Origin: Castellaniella denitrificans
Lineage (GTDB): Bacteria > Pseudomonadota > Gammaproteobacteria > Burkholderiales > Burkholderiaceae_B
Direction of reading: 5' to 3'
NCBI RefSeq assembly: GCF_027214045.1
Contig: NZ_JAPWHE010000006.1
Location: forward strand, 62,001-126,000
DNA: 64,000 nt
Part shown: in pieces, positions 22,955 to 44,591 of the stretch
Layout: each line of letters opens with the position of its first letter
Numbering within the stretch: the stretch's first letter is position 1
The notes under the pieces: model-generated
What the model saw: only the letters and a program-made list of their open reading frames with translations
Told to the model about the DNA's origin: nothing
Database searches by the model: none
Program-made: the position numbers and the translations under genes

Positions 22955-25837
22955 ATGAACCGAGTCGATGTCTTCTCGGGCCTGGAAACCCAGTCCATTT
23001 CCGTCGAAGTCCTGCGGGAAAAATACGCCAAAGGCGACGAAACCTCGATCGTCGAAATCCAGCGGCGCGTGGCGCGCGCGTTGGCCTCAGTCGAAAAACC
23101 GAAGCAGCGCGCCCGTTACCGTGCCTTGTTCCTGGATGCCCAGCAGCGCGGTTTCATCCCTGCGGGCCGGATCAATTCGGCCGCGGGCACGGACCTGGCC
23201 GCCACGCTCATCAACTGCTTCGTCCAGCCGGTCGGCGATTCGGTGTCCGATCCGGTGGACGGCCGGCCGGGCATCTACGACGCCCTGCAAAAGGCCGCCG
23301 AGACCATGCGCCGCGGCGGCGGGGTGGGTTACAACTTCAGCCACATCCGTCCGGCGGGCGCCATCGTCAAGGGTACGGCCTCAAAGGCGTCCGGGCCCGT
23401 TTCCTACATGCGCGTGTTCGACCGCTCCTGCGAGACTGTCGAATCGGCCGGATCGCGGCGCGGCGCACAGATGGGTGTGCTCGACGTCGGCCATCCCGAC
23501 ATCGAGACGTTCATCGAGGCCAAGCAGACGGCCGGCGAACTGACCAACTTCAACGTGTCGGTCAGCGTCACCGACGAATTCATGCGCGCCGTCGAGCACG
23601 ACGCCCCGTTTCCCCTGACCCATGCGGCGGAGCCTTCGGACGACCTCAAGGCCGCCGGCGCCTATCGCCGCGAGGACGGTCTGTGGGTCTACCGCGAAAT
23701 CCGGGCGCGCGACCTGTGGGACCGGATCATGCGATCCACCTACGACTACGCCGAGCCCGGCGTGCTGTTCCATGACCGGATCAACGGCGAGAACAATCTG
23801 CATTATCTGGAAACGCTGGGTGCCACCAACCCTTGCGGCGAACAGCCGCTGCCGGGCTACGGTTGCTGCTGCCTGGGTTCCATCGACCTGACGCGCTTCG
23901 TGCGCGACCCGTTCGGCTTGCAGGGTGATCCTTCGGTGGATTGGGACGGCCTGGCCGAGGTCGTGGGGGTGGCCGTGCGCATGCTGGACAACGTGCTCGA
24001 CGCCACCGTCTGGCCGCTGCCCGAGCAGGCGGCCGAGGCCGCCCGCAAGCGCCGCGTCGGTCTGGGCGTCACAGGGCTGGGCGATGCGCTGATCATGCTG
24101 AAGCTGGCCTATGACAGCGAGCCCGCGCGCGCGATGGCCGCCCGTTTCGCTCGCGAAGTGGCCCACGCCGCTTATCGGGCCTCGGTGGATCTGGCCCGCG
24201 AGCGCGGCCCTTTCCCGGGCTTCCAGGCCGGCCCCTATCTGGACAGCGGTTTTGCCCGGCGCCTGCCCGAGGACATCCGTGCCGCCATCGCGGAGCACGG
24301 CATCCGCAACAGCCATCTCACCTCGATCGCCCCGACGGGCACGATTTCCCTGGCCTTCGCGGACAATGCCTCCAACGGCATCGAACCGCCTTTCTCCTGG
24401 ACCTATACGCGTACCAAGCGCATGGCCGATGGCGGCAGGCAGGACTATGTGGTCGAGGACCACGCCTACCGGCTCTACCGCCTGATGGGAGGCGACGTGT
24501 CCGGCGCGCTGCCGCCGTATTTCCGCACCGCCCTGGAGATCTCCGCGCGCGACCACGCGCTGATGGTCGCGGCCGTCAAGGACCACGTCGACGCCGCGAT
24601 TTCCAAGACCGTGAACGTGGCCGCGGACTACCCCTACGAGGACTTCAAGGATCTGTACATGCAGGCCTGGAAACTCGGTCTGAAGGGGATCACCACCTAT
24701 CGTCCCAGCGGCAAGCGCGGCGCCGTATTGTCCGTGTCTCCGGCGGCCGAAGCGCCCGCACAGCCGGAGGCCATCTCCCTGTCCGAGGCCGATCGCCGCC
24801 TGGTACTCAAGCGTGTCATCGAGCCTGTGCTCAACAGCCTGCGCTGGCCCAATCGTCCACGGTTGCCGCGCGGGGCCTCCTGCTGGGCATCGGACGCCAT
24901 CGAGTCTCCGGAAGGCAGTTTCGTGGTTTTCGTATCCGATCTGCAGAAGCGGCCCTTCGAAGTCTGGGTCAACGGCGCCCGCCCGCCGCGCGGCCTGGGT
25001 TCCGTGTCCAAGATGCTCAGCCTGGACATGTACACGGACGACTTCCCCTGGCTCAATCGCAAACTGGAAGTTCTGGCCGCCACCAATGGCGGCTCGGCCT
25101 TCCAGATCCTGGACCCCGAGGCCGGCGAACCGATCTGGGTGCCTTCGACGGTGGCCGCTTTGGCGCGCCTGGTCGCGTTCCGCCACCGCTCGCTGGGCAT
25201 CGACATCGACGCCGCGGCCGCGCCGAAGTCGGCAATGATGGAAGCGCTGATCGCGCCGCGTGAACCCAAGACCGGCCCCGATGGCACCATGGGGTGGATC
25301 TGCGATGTCCTCAACCCGGTGACGGGCGACGATTTCGTGCTGATGGTCAAGGAATTGCGCATGCCCGACGGCTCCACCCGTCCGTATTCAGTGTGGGGCG
25401 CCGGCAAGTTCCCTCGTGCCTTCGAGGGCCTGTTCAAGCTCCTGAGCCTGGACATGCGCATCGTCGATCCGGCCTGGATCGCCATGAAGCTGCGCAAGCT
25501 GATGAATTACGCCGAGCCCCAGGGCGATTTTCTGGCACGCGTGCCCGGCGCCGAAAAATCCAGCTCCTTCCCCTCGACCGAAGCCTACATCGCCCGCCTG
25601 TTGATCCACCGCTATGCGATGCTCGGCATTCTTGACGAACAGGGCGAGCCCGTCGAGCAGATGGGCGTCGTCCAGGCCGAGTCCGAAGCCACCGAGGCCA
25701 TGGCGGCCGCGCATCCGGCCCGCCAGGCGCCGCCCGTCCACGGAACCGAGTGCCCCGAATGCCACCTGCACAGCGTCATCAAGAAAGACGGCTGCCAGTT
25801 CTGCACCCACTGCGGATACACGGGCGCATGTGGATGA
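22955..25837 (+). CDS. nrdJ: Adenosylcobalamin-dependent (class II) ribonucleotide reductase
   Basis: This 960-residue enzyme makes deoxyribonucleotides with a B12 radical, so it works with or without oxygen. The core (about residues 1-590) has TLINCFVQPVGDSV, MRRGGGVGYNFSHIRP, the active-site motif NPCGEQPLPGYGCCCLGSID and IAPTGTISLAFADN. After a linker come two tandem related domains: one around SFVVFVSDLQKRPFEVWVNG, the other around DFVLMVKELRMPDGSTRPYS, both continuing into KLLSLDM-like segments (TSCPD-type). The C-terminus is a zinc ribbon with CPEC and CTHC. GGAG precedes the ATG. No room exists upstream for a cobalamin riboswitch (50 bases). It suggests a facultatively anaerobic, B12-using organism. 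Confidence 0.95.
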   Translation: MNRVDVFSGLETQSISVEVLREKYAKGDETSIVEIQRRVARALASVEKPKQRARYRALFLDAQQRGFIPAGRINSAAGTDLAATLINCFVQPVGDSVSDPVDGRPGIYDALQKAAETMRRGGGVGYNFSHIRPAGAIVKGTASKASGPVSYMRVFDRSCETVESAGSRRGAQMGVLDVGHPDIETFIEAKQTAGELTNFNVSVSVTDEFMRAVEHDAPFPLTHAAEPSDDLKAAGAYRREDGLWVYREIRARDLWDRIMRSTYDYAEPGVLFHDRINGENNLHYLETLGATNPCGEQPLPGYGCCCLGSIDLTRFVRDPFGLQGDPSVDWDGLAEVVGVAVRMLDNVLDATVWPLPEQAAEAARKRRVGLGVTGLGDALIMLKLAYDSEPARAMAARFAREVAHAAYRASVDLARERGPFPGFQAGPYLDSGFARRLPEDIRAAIAEHGIRNSHLTSIAPTGTISLAFADNASNGIEPPFSWTYTRTKRMADGGRQDYVVEDHAYRLYRLMGGDVSGALPPYFRTALEISARDHALMVAAVKDHVDAAISKTVNVAADYPYEDFKDLYMQAWKLGLKGITTYRPSGKRGAVLSVSPAAEAPAQPEAISLSEADRRLVLKRVIEPVLNSLRWPNRPRLPRGASCWASDAIESPEGSFVVFVSDLQKRPFEVWVNGARPPRGLGSVSKMLSLDMYTDDFPWLNRKLEVLAATNGGSAFQILDPEAGEPIWVPSTVAALARLVAFRHRSLGIDIDAAAAPKSAMMEALIAPREPKTGPDGTMGWICDVLNPVTGDDFVLMVKELRMPDGSTRPYSVWGAGKFPRAFEGLFKLLSLDMRIVDPAWIAMKLRKLMNYAEPQGDFLARVPGAEKSSSFPSTEAYIARLLIHRYAMLGILDEQGEPVEQMGVVQAESEATEAMAAAHPARQAPPVHGTECPECHLHSVIKKDGCQFCTHCGYTGACG

Positions 25838-41350: not shown

Positions 41351-42094
41351 TTATTGCATGTGCATGCCCCCATTGATCGCGAAGTCCGCGCCAACGATAT
41401 AGGCGGCTTCATCCGACGCCAGGAATCCGACCAGCGCGGCAACCTCTTCGGGTTTTCCGAGGCGTCCCAAGGGAATCTGAGGCAATATCTTCTCGTTGAT
41501 GATGGAAGCCGGCAACGCCGTGACCATGCGCGTGTCCATGTATCCTGGCGAGACGGTATTCACCGTGATGCCGTGACGCGCCATTTCCTGGGCCAGCGAC
41601 ATCGTGAACCCATGCACACCGGCCTTCGCCGCCGCATAGTTGGTCTGGCCGGCCTGGCCCTTTTGCCCGTTCACGGATGAAATGTTGATGATTCTTCCCC
41701 ATCCGCGCGCGATCATGTTGTCGAGGACGGGCTGGGTCATGTTGAACAAAGAATCGAGATCCGCCCGCATGACCGCCTGCCAGTCGTCCTTGCGCATCTT
41801 GCGCAGACTGGCGTCGCGGGTGACACCGGCATTGTTGACCAGCACGTCGATGCTTCCCAATGAGTCATGCACCCGCTTGACACAGTCGCGGCATGAATCG
41901 TAGTCGGTGACATCCACGGGAAATACATGAAAGTCCATGCCGCAGGCTTTCATCTGAGCCACCCAGTGTGCCGCGTGCTTGTTGGCGGGCGAGGCCGTCA
42001 CCGCCACCGCGCAGTTTCCCGAGTACAGGCGCGTGCTGATGGCCTGCCCCAGACCGCCCATGCCACCCGTCACCAGGGCAATACGCTTGTCCAT
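41351..42094 (-). CDS. phaB: Acetoacetyl-CoA reductase (PhbB/PhaB type)
   Basis: This 247-residue short-chain dehydrogenase makes (R)-3-hydroxybutyryl-CoA, the monomer for PHB. It has the NADP motif VTGGMGGLGQAISTRL, LVNNAGVTRD, the catalytic Ser in INISSVNGQKGQ and the YxxxK in TNYAAAKAG, followed by VSPGYMDT. The QAGQTNYAAAKAG and IPLGRLGKPEEVA stretches are typical of PhaB. No phaA (thiolase) gene is in the window. AAGGAG precedes the ATG at 42094. The FNR box at 42160 lies between it and the divergent LigD-type gene. It fits with phaC and the phasin-like gene as a hypoxia-induced PHB set. Confidence 0.92.
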   Translation of the reverse strand: MDKRIALVTGGMGGLGQAISTRLYSGNCAVAVTASPANKHAAHWVAQMKACGMDFHVFPVDVTDYDSCRDCVKRVHDSLGSIDVLVNNAGVTRDASLRKMRKDDWQAVMRADLDSLFNMTQPVLDNMIARGWGRIINISSVNGQKGQAGQTNYAAAKAGVHGFTMSLAQEMARHGITVNTVSPGYMDTRMVTALPASIINEKILPQIPLGRLGKPEEVAALVGFLASDEAAYIVGADFAINGGMHMQ

Positions 42095-42159: not shown

Positions 42160-42173
42160 TTGACCACCATCAA
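42160..42173. promoter_or_regulatory. Shared FNR box between phaB and the LigD-type genes
   Basis: TTGACcaccATCAA sits midway between divergent genes. Plus-strand CATACT (42195-42200) and minus-strand CACACT (42132-42137) lie 28.5 and 29.5 bases from its centre, so one site could serve both promoters. Confidence 0.75.
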
Positions 42174-42229
42174 GAAGAAGGGTGCCCTGCCGCGCATACT
42201 TTTCGCAGCGGGCAAAGGACAACGGCCTC

Positions 42230-42769
42230 ATGCCGCAACAGGCTGATCAGGATCCGACCATGCAGACAAGACCTTTTCATGAGCGTGTTTTCGTTGTCCA
42301 GAAACATTGGGCGAGCCGGCTGCACTATGATTTCCGCCTGGAATTGGGGGATGCGCTGAAGAGCTGGGTGGTGCCCAAAGGGCCCAGCATGGACCCCGCG
42401 GTCAGGCGCATGGCGATAGAGACGGAGGATCACGCGCTTGCCTACAGCCGTTTCGAAGGCACGATTCCGCAGGACCGCTACGGCGCGGGCCGGGTGATCA
42501 TCTGGGATGAAGGGGTCTGGATCCCGGAAGGAGACCCGCTGGCAGGGTACCGGAACGGTCATCTGGCATTCACGTTGAAAGGCGGCAAAATGCGCGGTCG
42601 CTGGGCGCTGATCCGCATGCAGACACGCCGGCACGAGAAGCATCCGCCCTGGTTGCTGATCAAGATGCGCGACAGCCATGCGCATGACGAAGCGCATGAT
42701 CCGGGTACCGGCCAACGGCCCGGCATGGTCTTGTCCGGGCACAGCCCCCGGATTCAGTATGGCGGATGA
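42230..42769 (+). CDS. Stand-alone LigD-type 3'-phosphoesterase
   Basis: This 179-residue protein is the phosphoesterase (PE) module of bacterial NHEJ ligase LigD, which trims 3'-phosphate and ribonucleotide ends. All six catalytic-site residues of the Pseudomonas LigD PE domain are present with a constant offset: H26, H32, D34 and R36 in KHWASRLHYDFRLEL, plus H68 and Y72 in DHALAYSRFEG. LKSWVVPKGPS is also typical. It lacks any ligase or polymerase part, and the next gene supplies the polymerase. The ATG at 42230 follows the predicted start site by about 23 bases; ATG 42260 is an alternative. FNR control from 42160 is likely. Confidence 0.92.
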   Translation: MPQQADQDPTMQTRPFHERVFVVQKHWASRLHYDFRLELGDALKSWVVPKGPSMDPAVRRMAIETEDHALAYSRFEGTIPQDRYGAGRVIIWDEGVWIPEGDPLAGYRNGHLAFTLKGGKMRGRWALIRMQTRRHEKHPPWLLIKMRDSHAHDEAHDPGTGQRPGMVLSGHSPRIQYGG

Positions 42770-43688
42770 CGCACGCGACCGGATCCTGGTTGCGAGCCGT
42801 CTCGCCCGGCTGACTCACCCGGACCGGATCATCGATGCGCTTTCGGGCCTGCGCAAGCTGGATCTGGCCCGCTACTATGCGAAGGCGGCGCCGTTGCTGC
42901 TGAAACATCTGCGTGGCCGGCCTGTGGCCTTCGTGCGGGCGCCGACGGGCATCGCGGGTGGCACTTTCTTCCAGCGGCATCCGGGCGGTCATGCCATGCC
43001 GGGCGTCAATCCGTTGCCGCAACACCTGTATCCCGGCCATCCACCCTTGATGGAAATCGCCACGCTGGAAGGCATCATGGCCTGCGTGCAGATGAATGTG
43101 GTGGAGTTTCATACGTGGAACGTGTCCAGAACGGCCATCGGCAGGCCCGATCGGATGGTGTTCGATCTGGATCCGGGGCGGGGCGTCCAGTGGGGGCAAG
43201 TCTGTCAGGCGGCGGATATGGTCCGCGCTTTCCTGGCGGAATTCGGATTGACGTCCTGGCTGAAAACCAGTGGCGGCCGGGGACTGCACATCATTGTGCC
43301 GCTGATCGACCGGCATGGCCTGGATATCGTGAGCGTCCTGTCGCGCGGCATGGCCCAGCGCCTTGCCCGGACGGCGCCCGGGGTGTTCGCCGCGCAGAGC
43401 GGCGACAGGCACCGGGTTGGCAGGGTCTTCGCCGATTACCTGCGCAACGGCCAGGCCGCAACCACCGTGGCGGCCTGGTCGGCGAGGGCGAGGCCCGGCC
43501 TGGGGGTTTCGGTGCCGGTGGCCTGGGATGAGGTGTCCGCTCTCCGCGGTGGCGACCATTGGTCGGTCGCCACCGCGGGCACGCGCCTGAATGTGGGCGA
43601 TACTCCCTGGCGAGACTATGCGCCCCAATCGCTGGACAAGGCCTTGAAGGCCTTCGGCCCGGCCTTGCGCATGATGATGAAAGACTAG
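42759..43688 (+). CDS. Stand-alone LigD-type primase-polymerase
   Basis: This 309-residue protein matches the polymerase (POL, archaeo-eukaryotic primase fold) module of LigD, which adds ribo- or deoxynucleotides at double-strand breaks. The metal-binding pair is D136 and D138 in MVFDLDPG, and LKTSGGRGLHIIVPL carries the conserved His that contacts the nucleotide. RVFADYLRNGQAATTVAAWS and DTPWRDYAPQSLDKAL are also typical. It overlaps the phosphoesterase gene by 11 bases, so the two are coupled. No ATP-dependent ligase domain or Ku gene follows; the next gene is convergent usp, sharing CTAG at the stop codons. Confidence 0.92.
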   Translation: MADDARDRILVASRLARLTHPDRIIDALSGLRKLDLARYYAKAAPLLLKHLRGRPVAFVRAPTGIAGGTFFQRHPGGHAMPGVNPLPQHLYPGHPPLMEIATLEGIMACVQMNVVEFHTWNVSRTAIGRPDRMVFDLDPGRGVQWGQVCQAADMVRAFLAEFGLTSWLKTSGGRGLHIIVPLIDRHGLDIVSVLSRGMAQRLARTAPGVFAAQSGDRHRVGRVFADYLRNGQAATTVAAWSARARPGLGVSVPVAWDEVSALRGGDHWSVATAGTRLNVGDTPWRDYAPQSLDKALKAFGPALRMMMKD

Positions 43689-44524
43689 TGTGCGAACAGG
43701 ATCGGAACGGTCATGCTCTGAAGCAATGTCTTCGATGTACCCCCCAGGATCCACTCTCGCACGCGGCTGCGGTTGTAAAGCCCCATGACGATCATGTCGC
43801 AACCGCTGTCGGACGCCACATTCAGAATGACGTTGCCGATGCCGACCCCTTCGCTCGTCGCATGCACGGTCTTGGGCGCTGGGTAGCCATGCGCCGCGCA
43901 GTAGGCCGGCAAGTCCCCCGGCTGGATGTCCAGCGCCTGCAGCATGTCCGGCTGAGGATCGACCGTCAGGAGGGTGAGTTTCGAAGCGGTGCGCAACAAC
44001 GGGGCGGCGTCCGCCAATGCCCGGGCGGCCCGGCGGCCATAGTCCCAGCAGAGCAGCACGTGTTGTCCCAGGGGCTGGCGGGCGTCATCGACATACGGGA
44101 CCACCAGGACGGGCCGACCGGCCGTCGTGATCACGGAGTCGACCACACTGGGCGGTATGGACCAGTTCGACTGCGCCATGTCCGTCTGGCTCATGATCAG
44201 CAGATCGCAGGAACGGGCATGCACGGCCAGGGCTTCTTCGGCGGGGCCCTGTGGCATCCGGCATTCGCCCTTCACGCCTGCGCTTTCGAGTTGCTGCAGG
44301 AAATATGCCTTGATTTCGCGCTTTTCCCGCGCAAACTGTTCCTGCAGTTTGGACAGTACCTGCTGCACAATGCCGGCTTCATCATAAAGATAGCCGGGCA
44401 TGGGCGGATCGGTGCAAATGCCGATCACCTCGGCCTTGTGACGCATGGCCAGCTGGATGGCCACCTGCACACGGCCCGTCTGGGTGACGTCCTTGGTCAG
44501 ATCAAGTGCGATACGCCCGAGCAT
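43685..44524 (-). CDS. Universal stress protein (tandem UspA-like)
   Basis: This 279-residue protein belongs to the Usp superfamily and is long enough for two UspA folds. The N-terminal half starts MLGRIALDLTKDVTQTGRVQVA. The C-terminal half ends with the nucleotide-binding signature MIVMGLYNRSRVREWILGGT then SKTLLQSMTVPILFAH (G-x2-G-x9-G-S/T-like). Usp proteins help cells survive starvation and anaerobiosis. AGGAGG precedes the ATG at 44524. A minus-strand TAGACT -10 (44565-44570) lies exactly 28.5 bases from the shared FNR box at 44592. Confidence 0.9.
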   Translation of the reverse strand: MLGRIALDLTKDVTQTGRVQVAIQLAMRHKAEVIGICTDPPMPGYLYDEAGIVQQVLSKLQEQFAREKREIKAYFLQQLESAGVKGECRMPQGPAEEALAVHARSCDLLIMSQTDMAQSNWSIPPSVVDSVITTAGRPVLVVPYVDDARQPLGQHVLLCWDYGRRAARALADAAPLLRTASKLTLLTVDPQPDMLQALDIQPGDLPAYCAAHGYPAPKTVHATSEGVGIGNVILNVASDSGCDMIVMGLYNRSRVREWILGGTSKTLLQSMTVPILFAH

Positions 44525-44591
44525 GACAGCCTCCTGTTGGCCAGTGATCCCGATGTCGAACATCAGTCTATGCCCGGGATGGTTCCGCAAG

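Follow-up and report, generated by a model that had tools for sequence, protein, structure and literature searches.

The genome of Castellaniella denitrificans encodes the 3'-phosphoesterase (PE) and primase-polymerase (POL) modules of LigD as two overlapping genes, and matches for Ku and for an ATP-dependent ligase were not found in it. We predict, at a probability of roughly 0.45, that the two proteins constitute a LigD-derived repair module that has departed from NHEJ, in which POL would fill gaps with rNTPs, PE would trim and LigA would seal, under the control of FNR or a relative. Slightly more tentatively, the pair may belong to a recurrent and unnamed class of Ku- and ligase-free PE-POL modules that were assembled repeatedly from LigD-type components, that mend gaps with RNA and pass the nick to a housekeeping ligase, and that in Castellaniella came under an anaerobic regulator.

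The genes and predicted control elements lie in a window of 64,000 nucleotides, the whole stretch of DNA that was analysed (contig NZ_JAPWHE010000006.1, positions 62,001 to 126,000), and positions below are those of the window.

41351-42094, reverse strand: divergent short-chain dehydrogenase (SDR) gene, with the box in common with PE (PF00106/PF13561)
42160-42173, no strand assigned: FNR-type box TTGACCACCATCAA, an exact match, between the divergent SDR and PE genes
42195-42200, forward strand: likely -10 element CATACT, read directly and invariant in three aligned loci
42214-42219, forward strand: likely ribosome-binding site AAAGGA, read directly, 10 bases 5' of the PE ATG
42230-42769, forward strand: PE gene, a stand-alone LigD 3'-phosphoesterase of 179 aa (PF13298, TIGR02777)
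42759-43688, forward strand: POL gene, a stand-alone LigD-type primase-polymerase of 309 aa (PF21686, TIGR02778)
43685-44590, reverse strand: universal stress protein gene, convergent with POL (PF00582)

PE matches PF13298 at 139.6 bits (cut-off 31.1; E 5e-41) and TIGR02777 at 190.2 bits (cut-off 144), and POL matches PF21686 at 264.2 bits (cut-off 27.4; E 1.7e-78) and TIGR02778 at 260.4 bits (cut-off 214.7). The first-pass annotation had read the locus as a phosphoesterase and a polymerase in two overlapping genes, and both the coordinates and the profile matches bear this out. The ATG at 42759 is most likely the POL start, giving an overlap of 11 bp with PE. A longer reading of PE from a GTG at 42182 is unlikely because it begins upstream of the predicted transcription start (below). 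A single fused gene interrupted by a frameshift was also rejected, as each of the two genes has a start, a stop and domain ends of its own, and an overlap of 11 bp is too small to hold a LIG module. A defence-system reading of the pair was set aside, PADLOC having matched neither protein.

Lacking from the window are the other components of a LigD-Ku system. Across its 796 frames, the best match to our own LIG profile had an E of 0.55, ruling out a hidden ligase between or beside the two genes, and the best match to our own Ku profile had an E of 1.7; the first-pass annotation, too, had reported no ligase domain between or beside the genes and no Ku in the window. A genome-wide search for ku and ligD-lig genes, which it had proposed, returned no PF02735 (Ku) and no PF01068 (DNA_ligase_A_M) match in the whole genome, where PE, POL and LigA are each encoded by a single gene. 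Of the two findings that had been named as fatal to the claim, neither was made: no third gene or frameshift restores a ligase frame, and the rest of the genome yielded no full LigD-Ku system. With an ATP-dependent ligase domain found neither in the protein nor in the genome, the pair does not fall under DNA ligase D, and with Ku not found in the genome it does not fall under bacterial NHEJ. The suggestion that the proteins work with another ligase has a candidate in LigA.

PE retains all six catalytic residues, as originally claimed (H26, H32, D34, R36, H68 and Y72, equivalent to H42, H48, D50, R52, H84 and Y88 of Pseudomonas aeruginosa (Pae)), and also Q24, S45 and E66, by comparison with the P. 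aeruginosa PE (3n9b and 2lj6). The metal aspartates of POL are kept (D136 and D138, the DxD that had been noted at the outset, and D226), and with S171 and H177 they complete AEP motifs I-III. Also kept are the triphosphate contacts (S171, H177, R243), the ribose-reading H118 and the stacking F71, which forms a retained Phe pair with F70. R60 stands at the strand-displacement wedge, where the strand-displacement Arg sits. Arg73 replaces the fidelity Lys (Mtu K66 / Pae K606), and R219 of loop 2 takes the place of Mtu R220. Positions in both proteins, whose homology to solved structures is strong, were paired by reading the alignments, with L041 (below) left out of the residue table, and residue roles are those given in the accessible parts of two papers (PMC8656161; PMC4797286).

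PE in the window and in both Castellaniella relatives described below has no N-terminal arm, the part that holds R14, D15 and E21 in Pae (positions mapped on 2lj6); residue 15 is printed as Arg in PMC8656161 and is Asp in the deposited sequence. These three residues are described as needed for 3'-phosphatase activity and dispensable for removal of 3'-ribonucleosides (PMC8656161), and the arm is described as wanting in some species (PMC4797286). All 68 PE frames of at least 600 aa (full-length LigD) have the arm. Its motif was matched in 92 of 105 PE domains, a count that leaves out frames short of the PE N-terminus and duplicates of the same first 60 residues, and that includes one match judged spurious (L060); two PE domains without the motif, L041 and L059, are broken or cut. 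Six of the nine ligase-free PE-POL pairs, representing two lineages on the tree, have lost the arm (the window, G185, G562, G357, G468 and G724), and three retain it (G446, G579 and G381). PE-only genes occur both without it (G365, G268, G641 and Pseudidiomarina L055) and with it (G514 and G294). A tie between arm loss and LIG loss is suggestive and is not strict, because three of nine pairs and some PE-only genes keep the arm and other PE-only genes are without it. The missing arm argues for 3'-ribonucleotide trimming over 3'-phosphate cleaning as the main job of PE. Thus, of the DNA-end or ribonucleotide repair first proposed, the ribonucleotide part is favoured and 3'-phosphate cleaning as the main job is not. 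The absence of the arm in two separate pair lineages predicts that ribonucleotide trimming is retained and the 3'-phosphatase weakened.

Two Castellaniella MAGs, G185 (UBA6218; 78% complete) and G174 (89% complete), carry related loci. In G185 the island is collinear with the window, with identities of 94% for PE, 85% for POL and 81-98% for the neighbours. Both frames are intact in the window and G185, and PE is intact in all three loci. The SDR gene adjoins PE in both MAGs, and the universal stress protein gene adjoins in G185 and is absent in G174. Within the G185 stretch that matches this stress protein there is one TAG, which may precede the true start. In G174 the intact PE frame reads into the apparent last codons of POL, which otherwise appears to be gone, and the locus has also lost a kinase-like gene and the greater part of the CoA-ligase gene. 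POL was not found in the rest of this 89% complete MAG, and neither was LigA.

Both genes are under purifying selection, with POL the less constrained. Between the window and G185, a single pair of sequences, dN/dS is 0.095 for PE (bootstrap 95% 0.039-0.176) and 0.244 for POL (0.169-0.367), and the values for the other genes of the island span 0.04-0.33. Among the 10 genomes of the genus searched, PE was identified in four, POL in three and Ku in one (G145, which carries a full LigD). The pair is not a core need of the genus, since it occurs in two of these 10 genomes, with PE alone in a third. A search for empty sites in the genus located stress-protein relatives next to relatives of SDR/CoA-ligase or alcohol dehydrogenase, with neither PE nor POL, in G088 and G029; these gene orders are too unlike the window to define a point of insertion or loss.

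In a draw of 200 genomes from the family, POL was identified in 84, PE in 83 and Ku in 80, and five of the 84 POL genomes lack Ku (the window's genome, G185, G030, G105 and G132). Strongly matching short PE frames were confined to the window's genus (the window's genome, G185 and G174). G003 has weaker short PE frames of 146 and 129 aa, including that of a broken second LigD (L041), in which LIG and POL share one frame and PE is a weak, divergent frame of 146 aa; this gene is probably decaying. PE was found in 40 of 369 genomes in a class draw and in 96 of 398 in a phylum draw, each counting the window's genome; all three draws are samples and have some genomes in common.

Neighbourhoods were taken for PE frames of up to 265 aa. 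PE and POL are neighbours, with LIG neither between nor next to them, in G446, G562, G357, G468, G724, G579 and a second copy in G381 (C8, with a stop in PE). With the window and G185, this makes nine ligase-free loci in six families, five besides the window's. Ku and PF01068 are both absent from the window's genome, G185, G446, G562 and G357; G468 is without Ku and has a ligase gene about 700 kb from the pair, and G381 carries Ku and LIG-POL as a set apart from the pair. Elsewhere short PE genes lie beside LIG and POL, separate or fused, in genomes with Ku (G229, G370, G447, G381 C1, G820, and G543, there as a fragment on the edge of a contig), in genomes without it (G254, G441, G478) and in G811. 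G229 (L190) has Ku next to separate genes for PE, LIG and POL, and its LIG module is divided between two frames.

In the POL tree, the pair from Castellaniella forms a group with the LigD of Bordetella genomosp. 7 and B. petrii (support 100/98, inner order unresolved) on a stem of 0.62. Both Bordetella genes (L045 and L046) are full-length, with Ku next door. The PE tree, in which L041 was kept (on a branch of 10) and the PE of G381 C8 was left out as too short, places the pair among Alcaligenaceae LigD on a stem of 0.77, with the nearest relative not resolved. Because POL groups with full-length Bordetella LigD, the pair most likely derives from a full LigD that lost its ligase module, then went through a burst of change and finally came under constraint. 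Descent from the LigD-Ku system of the same genus is unsupported, as the G145 LigD lies elsewhere in the POL tree, and the pair may have originated by transfer or by an old replacement. A single origin for all ligase-free pairs was rejected: holding the nine pair POLs together gave p-AU 5.2e-7, for a group chosen after the tree was seen and with long branches in play. The POL tree requires at least five changes of state, with rows that hold POL only not counted. The first-pass annotation had allowed for a role outside NHEJ, and pairs that are repeated, not monophyletic, and free of Ku and LIG fit that view.

We identified an exact FNR-type box 56 bp upstream of PE in the window, common to both relatives. 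The first-pass annotation had placed the pair behind a shared FNR box in an island of such sites, as holds here: exact TTGAY-N4-RTCAA sites number eight in the window, where 0.14 would be expected, a count not equalled in any of 100 shuffles, and all eight lie within 32639-54158. Both half-sites are identical in the three loci. Invariant columns across these loci make up 13 of 14 in the box, only slightly above the surroundings (119 of 146 in the whole stretch); because the stretch is likewise largely invariant, conservation of the box taken alone is weak evidence for control. The centre of the box is 31 bp from that of the likely -10 element. This spacing would put the transcription start at about 42207, some 41.5 bp from the centre of the box, with AAAGGA lying in the 22 bp between this start and the PE ATG. 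In class II geometry FNR is centred at -41.5. An FNR-family box at this distance, common to the relatives, makes the pair a putative member of the FNR regulon.

The box is not a general trait of ligase-free pairs. The 300 bp upstream of each of the seven other pair loci (start points of three approximate) yielded no FNR-type box, and oxygen control is thus not general. Among 23 full LigD loci scanned whole, none has a box in front and 22 have no site at all, the remaining one (L112) having a site just behind LigD. The box in front of the Castellaniella pair is therefore likely an addition of this lineage. Of the seven stand-alone POL loci of the family, one (L038) has a box anywhere in about 16.7 kb, located by a PHA synthase homologue.

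We propose the following route from these sequence features. At low oxygen, FNR or a relative would turn the pair on. POL would bind and fill short gaps arising from excision repair or single-strand breaks, with ribonucleotides preferred when dNTPs are scarce. PE would resect excess or mismatched 3' ribonucleotides, much as the separate PE of Methanocella paludicola does for its POL. LigA would seal the nick, and RNase HII or PolA could later replace the ribonucleotides. This route is consistent with a genome in which LigA is present and Ku and PF01068 were not found, with retention of the nucleotide-binding and ribose-selecting residues of POL (S171, H177, R243, H118, F71, R60), and with a PE that keeps its catalytic set and misses the phosphatase-linked arm. 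Also in its favour are dN/dS values well below 1, box half-sites and a -10 element unchanged in two relatives, ligase-free PE-POL neighbours in six families of the sample that are not one clade, and precedents in M. paludicola POL/PE (PMC4797286) and Prim-PolC (PMC5663958), as far as those are described in the accessible text. However, POL evolves faster than PE (85% vs 94% identity), carries Arg73 at the fidelity Lys and has no C-terminal tail of the Prim-PolC type, and G174 keeps PE without POL, so joint action is not required. Further points against it are the occurrence of the pair in only two of 10 genus genomes, the arm kept in three of nine pairs, the absence of an FNR-type box from all seven other pairs, and box conservation little above that of its surroundings.

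Compared with bacterial LigD (PE-LIG-POL) and Ku, the PE and POL modules are homologous throughout, and the nearest relatives of the pair are full Alcaligenaceae LigD, with Ku beside L045 and L046. Unlike that system, the pair is without LIG and Ku, comprises two overlapping genes, misses the arm and has an FNR-type box in front. The split AP-NHEJ set of M. paludicola (POL, LIG and PE) likewise has PE and POL as separate proteins; there, PE is reported to be operonic with POL and a ligase and to resect POL products before ligation (PMC4797286), whereas the Castellaniella pair misses the ligase. The mycobacterial Prim-PolC/LigC complex also has a stand-alone LigD-type polymerase, described as filling short gaps with RNA in excision repair (PMC5663958), and comparable rNTP gap filling outside NHEJ would be expected in Castellaniella; however, this genome is without a LigC-type ligase, and its POL has a PE partner. 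By sequence POL is LigD-type (2fao, E 6e-82 vs 5op0, E 1.7e-29). It ends five residues past the part aligned to 6sa0/5op0, chains that run 47/33 residues further. We rejected identity with Prim-PolC, which is marked by a C-terminal loop 3 and a LigC partner, on the absence of this C-terminal stretch, judged by sequence, and of PF01068 from the genome. Stand-alone PE proteins (archaeal CkoPE and MbaPE, and bacterial PE-only genes) share the single domain and six catalytic residues, but the Castellaniella PE overlaps a POL gene and sits behind an FNR-type box.

The pair could instead be the decaying remains of an NHEJ system that has been lost, and may do little or nothing. This would account for its patchy distribution in the genus, the missing POL of G174, the long stems (POL 0.62, PE 0.77) and the faster evolution of POL, and there are broken pairs elsewhere (fragmented in Saccharopolyspora L058 and Pedobacter L056, and with a stop in PE in G381 C8). 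We consider such decay unlikely, as the frames are intact in the window and G185, with PE intact in all three loci, the catalytic residues are kept, and selection weighs against it (dN/dS 0.095 and 0.244, with upper bounds of 0.176 and 0.367). Pairs with open frames are also present in G446, G562, G357, G468, G724 and G579.

Alternatively, the two proteins may have separate jobs under one promoter, with PE cleaning 3' ends by itself and POL serving as a primase for repriming or as a damage-tolerance polymerase. G174 retains PE in the absence of POL, which weighs for a PE job independent of POL, and no POL lies in the fetched neighbourhood of PE in six class and phylum genomes (G641, G626, G268, G365, G514 and G294). 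Conversely, seven POL genes of the family (L032-L038) have no PE nearby; those of G030, G105 and G132, which have no Ku match, are among them. We regard this division of labour as improbable: the genes overlap in the window and, by 4 bp, in two distant f160 pairs, and ligase-free adjacency of PE and POL recurs in six families.

About equally doubtful is Ku-independent microhomology end joining, in which POL would synapse and fill double-strand breaks, PE would trim RNA and LigA would seal. NHEJ polymerases are described as promoting synapsis directly via loops 1 and 2 (PMC4797286). POL keeps F70, F71, R219 (loop 2) and R60, but these residues are a LigD inheritance and their presence does not imply their use. 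LigA is expected to seal RNA-containing ends poorly, which counts against this reading, and with Ku and LIG lost, double-strand breaks are a less likely substrate. Very improbable is an ordinary split LigD whose Ku or ATP-dependent ligase falls in an assembly gap: the 3.10 Mb genome is in 50 contigs, and absences from G185 (78% complete) and G174 (89%, even without a LigA match) are uninformative, but the completeness score of the window's genome is 100%, and neither Ku nor PF01068 was matched in three other genomes with such a pair, G446, G562 and G357 (98-99% complete).

Returning to the gap-mending module, the repeated occurrence of mostly open-frame pairs and the selection on the one pair tested suggest that PE and POL have a job of their own. 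In the accessible portions of open-licence PMC literature, no paper was found that names or tests a ligase-free PE-POL pair, or that treats both LigD and Castellaniella. Castellaniella offers a test case without a Ku/LigD background. If our prediction is correct, it would possess an oxygen-controlled RNA-patch repair pathway outside NHEJ, and the FNR-type site may link DNA mending to oxygen supply.

The island of eight boxes (32639-54158) encodes BON-domain, Hsp20, PHA synthase, phasin, DksA-like, alcohol dehydrogenase, SPW, universal stress, CoA-ligase and P-type ATPase proteins, with some of these names given by inspection rather than by profile. Seven of the eight boxes recur in L043, and the eighth falls beyond its end. 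P-type ATPase and PHA synthase relatives are also found near the stand-alone POL of G132, where an FNR-type box fronts the PHA synthase gene. Upstream of the island, the window encodes a ribonucleotide reductase large-chain homologue of 960 aa (22955-25837).
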